NCBI RefSeq assembly: GCF_002286735.1 | Contig: NZ_NRTA01000001.1 | Coordinates: 186,001 to 250,000, forward strand | DNA length: 64,000 nt | Origin: Leptolyngbya sp. BC1307 | GTDB lineage: Bacteria > Cyanobacteriota > Cyanobacteriia > Phormidesmidales > Phormidesmidaceae | Direction of reading: 5' to 3' | Shown here: piece by piece, positions 6,716-45,917 of the stretch | Position numbering within the stretch: the stretch's first letter is position 1 | How the letters are laid out: the number at the start of each line of letters is the position of its first letter | Notes under the pieces: model-generated | Database searches by the model: none | What the model was told of the DNA's origin: nothing | What the model saw: the letters and a program-made list of their open reading frames with translations, nothing else | Program-made: the position numbers and the translations under genes

Positions 6716-8158
6716 ATGATGACAACGACAACTGACAGAATTAGCAGTGAATCTTTTGGTGGCTTAAGCGAAGACTTTGACCCGCAGTGGCTGCTGACGC
6801 CCTCGCAGAGAGAGCTTCAGGCCAGGTTAATTGACCTGTGTGCCAGAGTGCTGAGACCGAATGCGATCGCCTCCGACCGCAATCTCATTTACCCGCAAGA
6901 GAACTTTAAAGCCCTCGCCTCTATTGGCTTACTCGGCTTGCTCGTTCCCACAGAGTGGGGCGGCTTGGGCGAAAACCACGTCTGCGCCGCTATGGTCGTG
7001 GAAACGATCGCCCGCTATGGCTGTCCGAGCACGGCGATGTGCTACACCATGCACTTAGGGGCAGTCGCGGCGGCTCTGTTTCGGGCCCATGACAATGCAG
7101 AACTGCAAACGCTGTTACAGCGGCTGGATAAAGACGTTGCGATTGGTACCCTGTCTTACTCTGACCCGGAAACCGGCTCTCACTTCTGGTATCCGGTCTC
7201 CTCTCGGGCTGAAGAGACTGCCGAAGGCTGGCAGGTGTTTAAGCGGGCCTCTTGGACAACCTCAGCGGGCTTTGCGGACTGGTACATTGTGCAAACAACC
7301 AGCCCTGACTTCGACGGAGACTATTCCGATCTCTCCTGTTTTTTAATCTACAAAAGCGAAGTTCAGGCGGAGCCACATAAGTGGGACGCGCTGGGTCTGC
7401 GAGGCAATCAGTCAGGGACGCTGCTGGTCGATGGTGTCGTGATTCCGGCGCAGCGCATGGTTGGCCCCTCGGGCGACGGGACAGCTTCTAACGACGAGAT
7501 TGTCGATCCGTTCTTTTTGTTATGTTCTTCAGCCTGTTGGAACGGCATTGCGATGGGCGCTGTGGACATTGCCAAAAAGCACGTCACCCGTAAAAAGCAT
7601 GTAGATGTCGGCATGCGAGTCGCCGACTACCCCACCATTCAAGACTACTTCGGCGAAGCAATTATCGACACCAGCGCCTGCCGAATGTATACCTTTTCGA
7701 TGGGGCAGCTGATGGATCAGCTAACAAATGGCTGCGACTGGTCTATTCATGCTGACACTGCAGCGCTACCGCGCTCGGCAAACTTGCACTGGTACTGGCA
7801 AATTAAGTTTTCAGCGGCAAAAAACGTGGCTCACGTATGCGACAAAATGCTGCACGCCTGCGGTGGCTCCGGCTTTAAAAAAGATATGGAAATAGAGCGC
7901 TACCTGCGAGATGGGAAGGCGGGCTGGGTGATGGGGCCGACCAACGAGATTCTGCGGCAGTTTGTCGGCAAATCGGCGCTGCTCGGGTTTGAGAGCCTTG
8001 ACTATTGGAATCAGTCTGTCAATGAGCGGGTGCTGCACAATGAGCTGAAGAAAATGAGCGCTGAAGACAAGCGTAGGCTAGCTCAAACTCTTTTAGAAGA
8101 GATGGAAGAAGCTGAAGCCCCTGCGAAGCGACCCGCCATGGCTGGAACGACTGCTTAG
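6716..8158 (+). CDS. Acyl-CoA-dehydrogenase-fold flavoprotein
   Basis: The 480 residues follow the ACAD order. The helical N-terminal domain contains LASIGLLGLLVPTEWGGLG. The middle beta domain contains SYSDPETGSHFWYP and WTTSAGFADWYIVQTTSP. A C-terminal helical domain carries MLHACGGSGFKKDMEIERYLRDG and the FAD/substrate segment GWVMGPTNEILRQFVG. It probably oxidises a thioester, or, as in nitroalkane oxidase and DszC-like relatives, a small nitrogen- or sulfur-bearing substrate with FAD. The usual catalytic Glu position is not obvious by eye. Tandem ATGs at 6716 and 6719 are both possible starts. It lies 69 bp upstream of, and co-directional with, the copper amine oxidase, suggesting one transcript and one pathway. 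Confidence 0.82.
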   Translation: MMTTTTDRISSESFGGLSEDFDPQWLLTPSQRELQARLIDLCARVLRPNAIASDRNLIYPQENFKALASIGLLGLLVPTEWGGLGENHVCAAMVVETIARYGCPSTAMCYTMHLGAVAAALFRAHDNAELQTLLQRLDKDVAIGTLSYSDPETGSHFWYPVSSRAEETAEGWQVFKRASWTTSAGFADWYIVQTTSPDFDGDYSDLSCFLIYKSEVQAEPHKWDALGLRGNQSGTLLVDGVVIPAQRMVGPSGDGTASNDEIVDPFFLLCSSACWNGIAMGAVDIAKKHVTRKKHVDVGMRVADYPTIQDYFGEAIIDTSACRMYTFSMGQLMDQLTNGCDWSIHADTAALPRSANLHWYWQIKFSAAKNVAHVCDKMLHACGGSGFKKDMEIERYLRDGKAGWVMGPTNEILRQFVGKSALLGFESLDYWNQSVNERVLHNELKKMSAEDKRRLAQTLLEEMEEAEAPAKRPAMAGTTA

Positions 8159-8227
8159 GAAGACAGACTCAGGAAAACTAGACGATTTCTCTCGCAAGAG
8201 AGGTAAAAGATATCAGGAGAATGATTC

Positions 8228-10159
8228 ATGACCCTTGCTAAAGAAAGAGTTGCACCAACCACGACCGTCAGCCATGCTTTAGAGCCACTGACGCCTAAAG
8301 AGATTACAGCGGCGGTTGCCATTGTGCGTGAGCAAAAGTCTCTAACTGCTAGTGTGCGGTTTGCGACGGTAACACTGAATGAACCGGCAAAAGAAACCGT
8401 GCTGAGCTTTATGCCGGGCGATCGCATAGAGAGAGAAGCCTTTATCGTGTTGCTTGATAACGCAACGGCGGAAACCTTTGAAGCGGTGGTCTCCCTGAGC
8501 GATCGCACTGTGAAATCTTGGGAGTACATTCCCGATGTGCAGCCGCCGATTATGCTCGATGAATTTATCGAGTGTGAGGCGGCGGTTAAGGCGAGTCCGG
8601 AGTTTCAGGCAGCGATCGCCAAGCGCGGCATCACCGACCCCGATCTGGTCATGGTCGATCCCTGGTCAGCCGGTCACTACGGCATTAGAGAAGACGAAGG
8701 CGTTCGGCTCTCTAGAGCTTTGTGCTGGGTCAGGGCAAACCCCACCGACCACGGCTATGCCCGGCCTATTGAGGGCGTGATTCCGGTGGTAGACCTGAAC
8801 AAAATGGAGGTGATCCGGGTTGAAGACTATGGTGTGGTGCCGCTACCGCCCAAAGACGGCAACTACACCCCTGAATATGTGAAAAACTACCGGCAAGACC
8901 TGAAGCCGCTAGAGATTGTCCAGCCAGAAGGCCCGAGCTTTACCGTCAATGATCACGAGATTGCCTGGCAAAAGTGGAAGGTTCGCATTGGCTTTAACCC
9001 GCGTGAAGGGCTGGTGCTTTATAACGTTACCTATAGCGATCAGGGAGAAGACCGGCCCATTTTCTATCGGGCTTCGCTGGCGGAGATGACCGTGCCCTAT
9101 GGCGATCCGCAGGCGCATCACTACCGTAAAAATGCCTTTGACGTGGGCGAATACGGCATTGGTTCACTGGCTAACTCTTTGACGCTAGGCTGCGACTGCC
9201 TGGGAGAGATTTATTATTTTGACGGCTTTATCACCGACTCTCGGGGCGAAGTCGTCAAAATCGAGAATGCCATCTGCCTGCATGAAGAAGACTTTGGCAT
9301 TTTGTGGAAGCATATGGACTGGCGCACCGAGCAGACTGAAGTGAGGCGATCGCGTCGCTTGGTGATCTCTTTTATCGCCACCGTCGGCAACTATGAATAC
9401 GGCTTTTACTGGTACTTCTATCAAGACGGCACCATTCAATACGAGGTGAAGCTGACCGGTGTCGTCAGCACCGCCGCTGTCATGCCTGGTGAAGTACCCA
9501 AGTACGGCACGCTAGTTGCCCCGCAGCTCAGCGCCCCGATTCACCAACACATTTTTAATGTGCGGATGGATATGTGCGTTGACGGTGCCAACAATTCTGT
9601 TTATGAAGTAGACATTGTGCCCGCAGAGGGCGACGACAACCCTTACGGCAATGCCTTCTACGCCAAATCTACTCTGCTGCCGACAGAGCAATCCGCTCAG
9701 CGGCTGATTGACCCGATGAAAGGGCGCTATTGGAAGATTGTCAACTCAGAGAAGACGAATGCGATGGGCTACCCCACTGCCTACAAGCTGATGCCAGGGG
9801 AGAATACGCTGCCACTCGCTCGCCCCGATGCCAGCATTACGAAAAGGGCAGCCTACATGACTAAACATCTCTGGGTGACGCCCTACAGCGCTGACGAAAG
9901 ATATCCGGCGGGCGACTACCCCAACCAAAACCCGGGTGGGGCCGGTCTGCCCCACTGGACTCAAGACAACCGCTCGGTTGAAGAAACCGATGTCGTGGTG
10001 TGGTATACCTTTGCTCACAGTCACTCTCCCCGCGCTGAAGACTGGCCGGTGATGCCGGTCGCGACGATTGGCTTCATGCTAAAGCCGCTGAATTTCTTTG
10101 ATGAAAACCCGGCCAACGACGTACCGCCCTCTGTGAATAAACATGCCTGTTGCGACTAG
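8228..10159 (+). CDS. Copper/TPQ primary-amine oxidase
   Basis: A 643-residue copper amine oxidase: primary amine + O2 + H2O gives aldehyde + NH3 + H2O2. Key residues are visible. Y389 in TVGNYEYGFYW is the topaquinone precursor, D305 in NAFDVGEYGIG is the catalytic base, H439 and H441 (PIHQHIF) plus H599 (HSPRAEDWPVMP) are the copper ligands. No signal peptide is present, as in actinobacterial cytosolic enzymes, so ammonia would be released inside the cell. The start ATG follows a good SD (atcaggag, about 8 bases upstream). The 3' end overlaps the GcvT-like remnant by 17 bp. The neighbours (ACAD-like enzyme, GS-like ligase, Amt) point to use of amines as a nitrogen source. The substrate (aliphatic, aromatic or polyamine) cannot be told by eye. 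Confidence 0.95.
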   Translation: MTLAKERVAPTTTVSHALEPLTPKEITAAVAIVREQKSLTASVRFATVTLNEPAKETVLSFMPGDRIEREAFIVLLDNATAETFEAVVSLSDRTVKSWEYIPDVQPPIMLDEFIECEAAVKASPEFQAAIAKRGITDPDLVMVDPWSAGHYGIREDEGVRLSRALCWVRANPTDHGYARPIEGVIPVVDLNKMEVIRVEDYGVVPLPPKDGNYTPEYVKNYRQDLKPLEIVQPEGPSFTVNDHEIAWQKWKVRIGFNPREGLVLYNVTYSDQGEDRPIFYRASLAEMTVPYGDPQAHHYRKNAFDVGEYGIGSLANSLTLGCDCLGEIYYFDGFITDSRGEVVKIENAICLHEEDFGILWKHMDWRTEQTEVRRSRRLVISFIATVGNYEYGFYWYFYQDGTIQYEVKLTGVVSTAAVMPGEVPKYGTLVAPQLSAPIHQHIFNVRMDMCVDGANNSVYEVDIVPAEGDDNPYGNAFYAKSTLLPTEQSAQRLIDPMKGRYWKIVNSEKTNAMGYPTAYKLMPGENTLPLARPDASITKRAAYMTKHLWVTPYSADERYPAGDYPNQNPGGAGLPHWTQDNRSVEETDVVVWYTFAHSHSPRAEDWPVMPVATIGFMLKPLNFFDENPANDVPPSVNKHACCD

Positions 10160-43504: not shown

Positions 43505-44776
43505 TCAATCATCCCAATTGCTCTCTTCCCAGTCGTCTTCAGCTGGCTCGTCTGTTGGTTCGGCGGTCATCGGCGGCGGCGGCGGCGGCGGCGGCGCTTC
43601 AGGCAAAGGTGACTGGGAGGAAGGGGGAGCGGCAGGGGGCGATCGCCGGGGAATATCAATCACAGGCTTAGCAGGTTTGGGTTTGGTCAATGAAGTAATG
43701 ACATCTCTAACCCACCCCACCAGGATTAGAGGCGCAGCTAGCAAACCGGGTTTTTCTCTAGCTTTCTGACCATCGGGTGAGCTAGAAATCACCTCGTCAG
43801 TCTCAAAGAGAGCGTCACCCCAATCTTCATCTAGGCCGGGCGATCGCGCCTCAACCCTCGCAGTCACTGCCTCATCCTCAGTCCTTTCAGGTCTATCTAT
43901 AGTAAAGCCATCCGCTTCAGATTGACTGGCTGCAGCCTGCTGAACATCTGGCGGTTCAGCTACCGATTGATTCAAGGCAGCATCCGACTCAGCCACAGCA
44001 GAAGTGTCCTGCACTTCCTCTGAGACTTCCTCTGAGACTTCCTCTGAGACTTCCTCTGAGACTTCCTCTGAGACGACTTCCTCTAAAGCCTTCTCAAGCT
44101 CCGCTTCACTCCCGGCTTCTACACCTTTGTCTTCTGCACTCCTGTCTCCTGTCTCCTCCACCTCAGCCGTTTCCACCGAAAGAATCTCAGCCTCCGCTGA
44201 AGGGGGCGCAGTATAGTCTGGCTCTGTAGCCGGTTCGAGGGCAGCCGGTGGTTCTTCAATCAGCGCCTCTAGCGTCAGGGCGGCTGACGGCTCAGGCAGC
44301 GTCGCTAACACACCGTCCTCCACAAATTCGTATTCATAGACGGGCCGACGGCGGGGATCGAGCCGCTGGGTGAGTCGTTTTGCTGATGACTCGCCTAAAG
44401 TTCGTTTCTGCAGCCGGATCGGGCGGACCGAGTCATCAGGTACCAAGCGCAGCTGATTGAGCCGACTTTTTGCCCAGTCTGTGACCACTTCTGGCGTCAG
44501 AACAACCGGTGTCTGCTGGTAGACCGGTGTTTTCTCGCGGCGCACTGTCAGAGTTTGCCAGCCTAAGCCCAGCAGCAGGGTCACCGCCGTCAGTTGGCCT
44601 AGCAGCACTGCTCCTGTGATCTGCCCAGCGCAAAACCACAGCACCACGGCGTAAAACATGCCCAGCCCACTCCACAAAAAGTCAGAGCGGCGGTGCACCT
44701 CCGGATAAAAGAAGGCAGCCATATAAAAGATAAAGCTGGCTGAGCCGAGCAGCACAGCTAAAACATTTGCGAGCAT
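43505..44776 (-). CDS. ycf66: Ycf66-family membrane protein with low-complexity tail
   Basis: The first 85 residues match Ycf66: ANVLAVLLGSASFIFYMAAF, YPEVHRRSDFLWSGLGMFYA and VLLGQLTAVTLLLGLGWQTL form three to four membrane helices. Ycf66 occurs in cyanobacteria and plastids; its function is poorly defined. Here the N-terminal part is followed by a long acidic, disordered tail (residues about 160-423). The tail contains a five-fold tandem repeat encoding SEEV-type units, an eight-proline run and the terminus PAEDDWEESNWDD. The protein is far longer than plain Ycf66 (about 100-300 residues). It lies upstream of ileS on the same strand. Confidence 0.85.
   Translation of the reverse strand: MLANVLAVLLGSASFIFYMAAFFYPEVHRRSDFLWSGLGMFYAVVLWFCAGQITGAVLLGQLTAVTLLLGLGWQTLTVRREKTPVYQQTPVVLTPEVVTDWAKSRLNQLRLVPDDSVRPIRLQKRTLGESSAKRLTQRLDPRRRPVYEYEFVEDGVLATLPEPSAALTLEALIEEPPAALEPATEPDYTAPPSAEAEILSVETAEVEETGDRSAEDKGVEAGSEAELEKALEEVVSEEVSEEVSEEVSEEVSEEVQDTSAVAESDAALNQSVAEPPDVQQAAASQSEADGFTIDRPERTEDEAVTARVEARSPGLDEDWGDALFETDEVISSSPDGQKAREKPGLLAAPLILVGWVRDVITSLTKPKPAKPVIDIPRRSPPAAPPSSQSPLPEAPPPPPPPPMTAEPTDEPAEDDWEESNWDD
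44013..44072. repeat. 12-bp coding tandem repeat (five copies) in the Ycf66-like gene
   Basis: The 12-base unit acttcctctgag is repeated five times without mismatch at 44013-44072, followed by a partial sixth copy after a 3-base insertion. On the minus strand it encodes the Ser-Glu-Glu-Val unit of the acidic tail. The unit length is a multiple of three, so copy-number change would lengthen or shorten the tail without frameshift. Confidence 0.95.
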
Positions 44777-44870: not shown

Positions 44871-45917
44871 CTACATCGCGCCCGACTTTTTGCTGAACAG
44901 TACCAGCACCGTTTTTACAATCAGCTGAATGTCATACAGCAGACTCCACTTACGCTGATACTCTAAATCGAGCTGAATCACTTCTTCAAAGGTGGTGACG
45001 GTCGAGCGGCCGTTGACCTGCCATTCGCCAGTCATGCCGGGCTTGACATTCAGGCGCTGCCACTGCGAGATCTCGTACTGGGCAATTTCATCCGGTGTCG
45101 GCGGGCGCGTCCCCACCAGGCTCATGTCGCCTTTGAGCACGTTCCAAAACTGAGGAAATTCATCCAGGCTGGTGCGCCGTAAAAATCGACCGATCTGGGT
45201 AATACGTGGGTCATTGTCGTTTTTGAATAGCGGCCCTTCTACTTTGTTGGCGACCTCGCGCTTGCGGGCTTCGGCATCGGTCACCATTGAGCGAAACTTC
45301 CAGATGGTGAAGCGTTTGCCCATCCAGGAGCAGCGGGTCTGAGCAAAGAAAATTGGGCCACCGTCTTCGCGTTTGATGGCGATCGCCACCACCACTGTCA
45401 AAACTGCCGTCAGCCCCAGCCCCACGAACGCCCCAATGATGTCCATCGCCCGCTTTGCTTTAGAACGGACTGATGGATGCGTCTCTGGCAGTTTTTCTAG
45501 AGCGGACTGCACTTGCGCTGGCGTCGTCGCTGAGGGATCTGTCGGTTTTGAAGCAGGCTCAATATGGAAAATCTGATCGAGTTCAGTCAGAGAAAGGGCC
45601 ATTAGCACCTGATTAGGCACATTCACGAGCCGCAGCCTTGCGCCTTGTGACTCGCAAAGCTTGTGGCAAATGACCAGAGCGCCAATGCCGCTGCTGTCGA
45701 TAAAGACCGTCTCACCAAAGTCTAAGACGACTTCTTTAAGATCAGGGTGATGGGCAAATGCCGTCTGACAGTCGCGCTTGAAGGCGACCGCCTCAACGAC
45801 CGTAAATGCTTTTGCAAGTTGAATGGTACCCATTGACTCCCAGACGGCTGCTTTAGAACTGGCGGCTTTAGGACTGGCATTGGGTGCAGCGGTAAAGCTT
45901 TGGTGGGGGCTAGTCAT
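44871..45917 (-). CDS. STAS domain fused to a bacterial sugar (undecaprenyl-phosphate) transferase
   Basis: A 348-residue fusion. Residues 28-122 are a STAS/anti-sigma-factor-antagonist domain: VVLDFGETVFIDSSGIGALV, with D74-S75-S76-G77 matching the phosphorylated DSSG loop of SpoIIAA, and RLRLVNVPNQVLMALSL. Residues 152-348 are a monotopic sugar-1-phosphate transferase: KRAMDIIGAFVGLGLTAVLT re-entrant helix, GPIFFAQTRCSWMGKRFTIW, KFRSMV, the catalytic LDEFPQFWNVLKGDMSLVG (D252, E253) and VKPGMTGEWQVNGRS. The C-terminal half starts lipid-linked glycan synthesis. The N-terminal half suggests control by serine phosphorylation/partner binding. The gene lies 10 kb from the exopolysaccharide operon, which has no such priming enzyme of its own. 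Confidence 0.93.
   Translation of the reverse strand: MTSPHQSFTAAPNASPKAASSKAAVWESMGTIQLAKAFTVVEAVAFKRDCQTAFAHHPDLKEVVLDFGETVFIDSSGIGALVICHKLCESQGARLRLVNVPNQVLMALSLTELDQIFHIEPASKPTDPSATTPAQVQSALEKLPETHPSVRSKAKRAMDIIGAFVGLGLTAVLTVVVAIAIKREDGGPIFFAQTRCSWMGKRFTIWKFRSMVTDAEARKREVANKVEGPLFKNDNDPRITQIGRFLRRTSLDEFPQFWNVLKGDMSLVGTRPPTPDEIAQYEISQWQRLNVKPGMTGEWQVNGRSTVTTFEEVIQLDLEYQRKWSLLYDIQLIVKTVLVLFSKKSGAM

Follow-up and report, generated by a model that had tools for sequence, protein, structure and literature searches.

Among described proteins, the one closest to the protein reported here is that of all4160 of Anabaena sp. PCC 7120, reportedly the subject of work by Wang et al. in 2007. In the literature drawn on here, the product of all4160 is a glycosyltransferase that carries a STAS domain at its N-terminus (PMC8256260), heterocyst envelope polysaccharide synthesis in Anabaena depends on the gene (PMC4390870), and it is treated as a transcriptionally regulated biosynthesis gene, with no phospho-switch described there (PMC8256260, PMC4390870). 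How Wzx/Wzy-type polysaccharide synthesis is controlled after translation is poorly understood. One mechanism of such control is that of Myxococcus xanthus, in which EpsW~P stimulates the phosphoglycosyl transferase (PGT) EpsZ, an earlier case of a PGT at the initiating step being under phospho-control (PMC12802240). As for STAS domains themselves, phosphorylation breaks their contacts with partners in SpoIIAA, RsbR and RsbS (PMC7367683), and both SypA and HmpV are active when unphosphorylated (PMC8256260).

The window (the whole stretch analysed, 64,000 nucleotides of Leptolyngbya sp. BC1307) encodes a STAS domain and a sugar transferase within a single protein of 348 residues, as the preliminary description had read it: both Pfam domains score above their cut-offs, and a check on the translation showed the numbering of D74-S75-S76-G77 and D252/E253 to be exact and both motifs to be intact. 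The features of the locus are the following.

44871..45917, minus strand: STAS-PGT fusion gene, one open reading frame of 348 aa with an ATG start
45555..45824, minus strand: STAS domain, residues 32-121 (Pfam PF01740, AlphaFold2 model, fold search)
45687..45698, minus strand: DSSG phospho-loop, D74-S75-S76-G77, with S75 as predicted phosphoserine (conservation and SpoIIAA alignment)
45456..45554, minus strand: linker of low model confidence, its C-terminal end being a conserved THPSV-x-S-xx-KR motif
44895..45455, minus strand: Bac_transf catalytic domain, residues 155-341, with N-terminal membrane helix (Pfam; PglC/WbaP relatives)
45159..45164, minus strand: catalytic dyad D252-E253 within SLDEFPQ (conservation and WbaP alignment)
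43505..44776, minus strand: 423-aa gene 3' of the fusion, its product with a hydrophobic N-terminus, then acidic/proline-rich

Stops occur throughout the plus strand of 44871-45917, and Rfam gave no match near the fusion gene. The product of the 423-aa gene, which from reading its sequence we take to be Ycf66-like, is no part of the switch discussed below. This gene and the ileS, chrA-like and glgB-like neighbours were considered as partners and rejected, being kept within the window's family only or nowhere.

The STAS domain matches PF01740 with 49.4 bits against a cut-off of 22.6. With the NCBIfam anti-anti-sigma model TIGR00377 the score is 49.0 bits, just under the cut-off of 53.45, and we therefore do not call the fusion protein an anti-anti-sigma factor. 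In a profile search of the PDB, D74-S75-S76-G77 aligned with the D-S-S-G of SpoIIAA, whose first serine is the phosphorylated one, and a SpoIIAA variant (1tid/1til) carries alanine exactly at the position matching S75. Lack of conservation of S75 in homologues had been named beforehand as a finding that would speak against the proposed switch. This objection falls, since the residue is serine in 123 of 123 aligned fusions; D74 and G77 are equally unvarying, and S76 is kept in 121 of the 123, the alternatives being T or M. On this alignment, S75 falls at the phosphoserine position of SpoIIAA and is a putative site of phosphorylation.

In an AlphaFold2 model of the fusion (mean pLDDT 69, pTM 0.48) the STAS fold is confident at residues 31-120 (pLDDT about 83-95), and helix 75-90 has S75 at its N-terminal end. 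Among solved STAS structures, the best Foldseek matches were the SpoIIAA-SpoIIAB and RsbV-RsbW complexes, for the most part at some 1.5-2 Å, and the model superposes on SpoIIAA at 1.7 Å over about 101 columns. The PGT part is less certain than the STAS part, and the placement of one relative to the other is loose in the model, given the pTM of 0.48 and a linker (around 127-150) of low confidence, with pLDDT <50.

The catalytic domain matches PF02397 (Bac_transf) with 224 bits against a cut-off of 27. In NCBIfam the C-terminal part of the protein groups with exopolysaccharide polyprenyl glycosylphosphotransferases, slightly below the cut-off of the full-length model, since it lacks the N-terminal half that such proteins usually have. 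WbaP and PglC are the nearest solved relatives of the domain, and D252 and E253, which align with the LDELPQ motif of WbaP, do not vary in any of the 123 aligned fusions. The fusion is thus probably a small monotopic PGT, predicted from its sequence to transfer sugar-1-phosphate to polyprenyl phosphate. Residue 176, within the PGT membrane helix, is V in the window's genus (window 45390-45392) and P in 114 of the 123 fusions, and the membrane helix 153-183 is unbroken in the AlphaFold2 model; given both, the membrane topology of the PGT in this genus may differ.

A sample of 386 genomes of the phylum was searched with a profile made for the STAS domain of the fusion. Fusion-type STAS domains appeared at E < 1e-24, and almost every one lay in an open frame of 320-480 aa, those of triple fusions being longer; free STAS proteins, of about 110-130 aa, appeared at E about 1e-20. 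By hand count from the table, about 87 of the 386 genomes carry a STAS-PGT fusion; all lie within class Cyanobacteriia and none outside it, and some Nostoc-type genomes have 2 or 3 copies. The genome survey that the preliminary description had proposed thus finds the same architecture recurring across the class, and the fusion is no local oddity but a protein conserved in cyanobacteria. In a tree of PGT domains 95 fusions group together, apart from the unfused PGTs, with weak basal support.

Several variants of this architecture were seen. A short fusion, L134, is placed outside the main fusion clade of the PGT-domain tree and may have an independent origin. Four larger fusions of 473-718 aa (L077:7981-9978, L135:7227-9380, L136:7201-9348 and L138:7138-8556) have one or two Alg13/Alg14-like glycosyltransferase domains preceding STAS-PGT, presumably of PssE/PssD type from our reading, and would unite the first and the second sugar transfer in a single switched polypeptide. 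At L288 an unfused PGT gene (7213-7935) is directly preceded by a separate STAS gene (8120-8458) with DGFG for DSSG, a split STAS/PGT form without the phospho-acceptor serine. At L219:951-1945 the STAS-PGT is spread over two frames that overlap, being either broken or mis-assembled, and the kinase comes after it; the contig is labelled as a Chloroflexaceae MAG and mis-binning is possible.

The preliminary description had regarded the fusion as a design not yet characterised. That part gives way, as a STAS-glycosyltransferase fusion is on record as all4160, and what stands is partner-switch control, for which we found no report: in the open-access literature searched, outside which most subscription papers lie, none describes a STAS-PGT fusion encoded with a kinase and a phosphatase. 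SulP carriers aside, each STAS protein of fusion size that we examined in six Nostoc-type genomes is a STAS-PGT fusion, so all4160 very probably belongs to the same family, as an orthologue or paralogue of the window's fusion, matched by its described architecture and by elimination. XssQ of Synechocystis was considered as a further STAS protein and dropped; the papers describe a transcriptional regulator and leave STAS unmentioned.

The surroundings of 126 fusion genes were searched with relatives of the window genome's kinases, phosphatases and free STAS proteins, and linkage was counted over the 117 loci with enough downstream sequence, roughly 6-8 kb being viewed per side. The existence of a partner kinase had been set beforehand as a test of the proposal, and the outcome does not refute it. 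Immediately 3' of the fusion, 25 of the 117 loci carry a gene for a HATPase_c_2 kinase of the SpoIIAB/RsbW type, a count that very divergent kinases could escape, the profiles having been built from the linked kinases and queries from the window's own genome. No such kinase was found elsewhere in the 117 neighbourhoods; with about a dozen genes in each, chance would spread the matches. The linkage occurs in at least nine families (f2, f18, f19, f29, f30 in its third copy, f31, f33, f35 and f37), and named genera include, among the matches listed, Oscillatoria, Planktothrix, Laspinema, Microcoleus, Tychonema, Limnothrix and Coleofasciculus. From the end of the fusion to the start of the kinase the distance is -32 to +15 bp in most linked loci and 53-550 bp in others, and the small or negative gaps suggest translational coupling; at L138 the adjoining kinase gene is on the opposite strand. 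The linked kinases are PF13581 (HATPase_c_2) proteins with an intact N-box, E-G-F-T-N-A-V-R-H-A-H (E..TN..R.AH), and DxG motif, and in four of them (L126, L132, L137 and L138) the G2/nucleotide lid is degenerate.

Some fusion operons also contain genes for sensor-SpoIIE phosphatases, the PP2C co-occurrence that the proposed survey was to look for. In an Oscillatoria MAG (L210) and in Laspinema palackyanum (L212) the order is fusion, kinase and PAS/GAF-SpoIIE phosphatase, with a free STAS gene after the phosphatase on the opposite strand; L199 and L201 resemble them. Kinase, free STAS and then an opposite-strand receiver-SpoIIE phosphatase come after the third Nostoc-type copy (L126, L132). Judged by gene content, some fusion loci hold a predicted complete partner-switch set of the SpoIIA/Rsb type, in which the antagonist STAS is fused to a PGT. 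The main Nostoc-type fusion copies have no linked kinase in the count over the 117 loci. Two further arrangements of these kinases were noted. In G008 and G035 (L266, L272) and similar cases the linked-type kinase domain sits inside open frames of about 800 aa, and in many genomes a second cyanobacterial kinase group (L236-L255) adjoins an opposite-strand PP2C gene, a pair that is probably an independent partner switch.

In the window's own family no locus has a linked kinase (0 of 16 with enough sequence). The window's genome has three HATPase_c_2 kinases clearly above cut-off, on contigs C10, C1 and C8, and SpoIIE-type phosphatase matches on C3, C9 and C1, plus a weak fourth. The profile of linked kinases found two kinases in this genome, that on C10 being the better scorer. 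The clade of the kinase tree with most linked kinases leaves out those of the window's genome, the C10 kinase lying in a separate clade, so that the window's fusion has candidate partners at most. The C10 kinase was also considered as an orthologue of the linked kinases, which the tree does not support. Its gene (G000:C10:77262-77645; L086:7248-7673) lies between petD and a GDP-mannose-dehydratase-like and/or GT4 gene, in a cluster that is partly conserved and present in most sampled members of the family, and its position beside glycan genes is suggestive of a partner of the fusion. Both this gene (G000:C10:77262) and C1:43299 are putative, unlinked candidates for the partner kinase.

We consider it fairly probable that the fusion is a membrane-attached PGT gated by a partner switch on S75, active in its dephosphorylated form and setting the initiation of a polymer. 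The PGT would start an exported polysaccharide by placing sugar-1-phosphate onto polyprenyl phosphate. A kinase of the SpoIIAB/RsbW type would bind the STAS domain of the fusion and phosphorylate S75, and a sensor-equipped PP2C phosphatase would strip this phosphate upon a signal. The dephosphorylated fusion would be active, and phosphorylation of S75, or binding of the kinase, would shut initiation off; with initiation gated in this way, control of polymer output would be post-translational and act on the first committed step. What the analysis shows is the domains, the unvarying catalytic and phospho-acceptor residues, the fold, and kinase and phosphatase genes linked to the fusion in related genomes. 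Phosphorylation of S75, its effect on PGT activity, the sign of that effect, the polymer made and the partner in the window's genome are matters that we infer. The sign is drawn by analogy: an active dephosphorylated form is predicted because SypA and HmpV are active unphosphorylated and phosphorylation breaks STAS contacts elsewhere. STAS domains are able to act without phosphorylation, which we count against a switch at S75. Partner-switch control of initiation, as first put forward for this protein, finds support in part, favoured by the invariance of S75 and by the linked kinase and phosphatase genes, and disfavoured by the lack of a linked kinase in the window's family and in the main Nostoc-type copies and by the degenerate nucleotide lid of some linked kinases. 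The wider reading, in which an ancient cyanobacterial partner switch has a polysaccharide-initiating enzyme, not a transcription factor, as its output, with a PP2C phosphatase and an RsbW-type kinase gating the PGT via S75, we regard as evenly balanced.

The STAS domain could instead be a mere scaffold that helps the protein to dimerise, to stay stable or to find its place, in lieu of the N-terminal dimerisation module of large PGTs, with S75 as a structural residue that caps helix 75-90. Large PGTs such as WbaP dimerise via their N-terminal domain (PMC10942596), the STAS protein MlaB stabilises its complex and phosphorylation is unproven there (PMC7367683), and the position of S75 at the start of the helix in the model would suit a cap. 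A structural cap should allow T or D, yet only S is found at this position in the 123 fusions, whereas S76 varies, and the adjacent serine kinase and PP2C genes would be left unexplained; we hold a scaffold to be unlikely. Slightly less likely still is that STAS serves as the antagonist in a transcriptional switch, with the PGT as membrane anchor or status reporter, so that the kinase, acting as anti-sigma factor, would be bound and a sigma factor freed when initiation is needed. Canonical SpoIIAA/RsbV antagonists act in this manner, the linked kinase belongs to the same kinase family, and the free STAS gene at some loci is a possible second arm of the switch. However, a non-systematic look noticed no sigma-factor gene beside the operons, and the strict retention of a catalytic fusion over a wide sample, with invariant residues, fits an enzymatic output better. 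An accident, in which assembly or annotation error merged two neighbouring genes, has nothing but general possibility in its favour and is refuted, to the point of near impossibility, by the same architecture in isolates and closed chromosomes of many families and in one main clade of the PGT tree.

If initiation is gated by an S75 partner switch, slime production may have its on-off control at the very first step. Nothing in the sequence of the window indicates which polymer is made. At L134 and L305 the fusion gene lies in a cluster with sulfotransferase-like and flippase-like genes, named from reading their sequences, and this cluster and the Alg13/Alg14-like fusions are consistent with a role in exported polysaccharide. 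With a switch built into the initiating enzyme and a kinase encoded next door, the system is compact and testable, and it bears on the formation of cyanobacterial slime, mats and blooms and on the engineering of cyanobacterial polysaccharides. It also offers a concrete hypothesis for the unexplained influence of STAS proteins such as SypA on polysaccharide output: if true, the fusion would point to a PGT as the target of the free STAS proteins at other polysaccharide loci.

All parts of this system are of known kinds and the fusion had been noted earlier; it is the linkage to kinase and phosphatase that seems unreported. The window's fusion resembles Anabaena all4160 in its N-terminal STAS domain on a glycosyltransferase, and has in common with WbaP, WcaJ and PglC the catalytic domain and DE dyad, but STAS is absent from those three. 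With EpsW-EpsZ of Myxococcus xanthus (PMC12802240) it would share a post-translational phospho-signal acting on an exopolysaccharide-initiating PGT; there, a separate single-domain response regulator, phosphorylated on aspartate, acts on a large PGT, whereas here the STAS domain is fused, serine phosphorylation is predicted and the PGT is a small core. In SypA-SypE of Vibrio fischeri a STAS protein switched by a serine kinase/phosphatase is needed for polysaccharide-dependent biofilm (PMC4517449, PMC8256260), and HmpU-HmpV-HmpW of Nostoc punctiforme is a cyanobacterial partner switch at a locus named for motility and polysaccharide (PMC8256260); unlike the window's fusion, both SypA and HmpV are free STAS proteins without a PGT. 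The SpoIIAA-SpoIIAB-SpoIIE and RsbV-RsbW-RsbU switches share with the fusion and its linked genes the STAS fold and DSSG loop, a HATPase_c_2 kinase and a sensory SpoIIE-type phosphatase. Their STAS antagonist is free, whereas that of the fusion is part of a membrane-bound enzyme, so that its output need not be a sigma factor.
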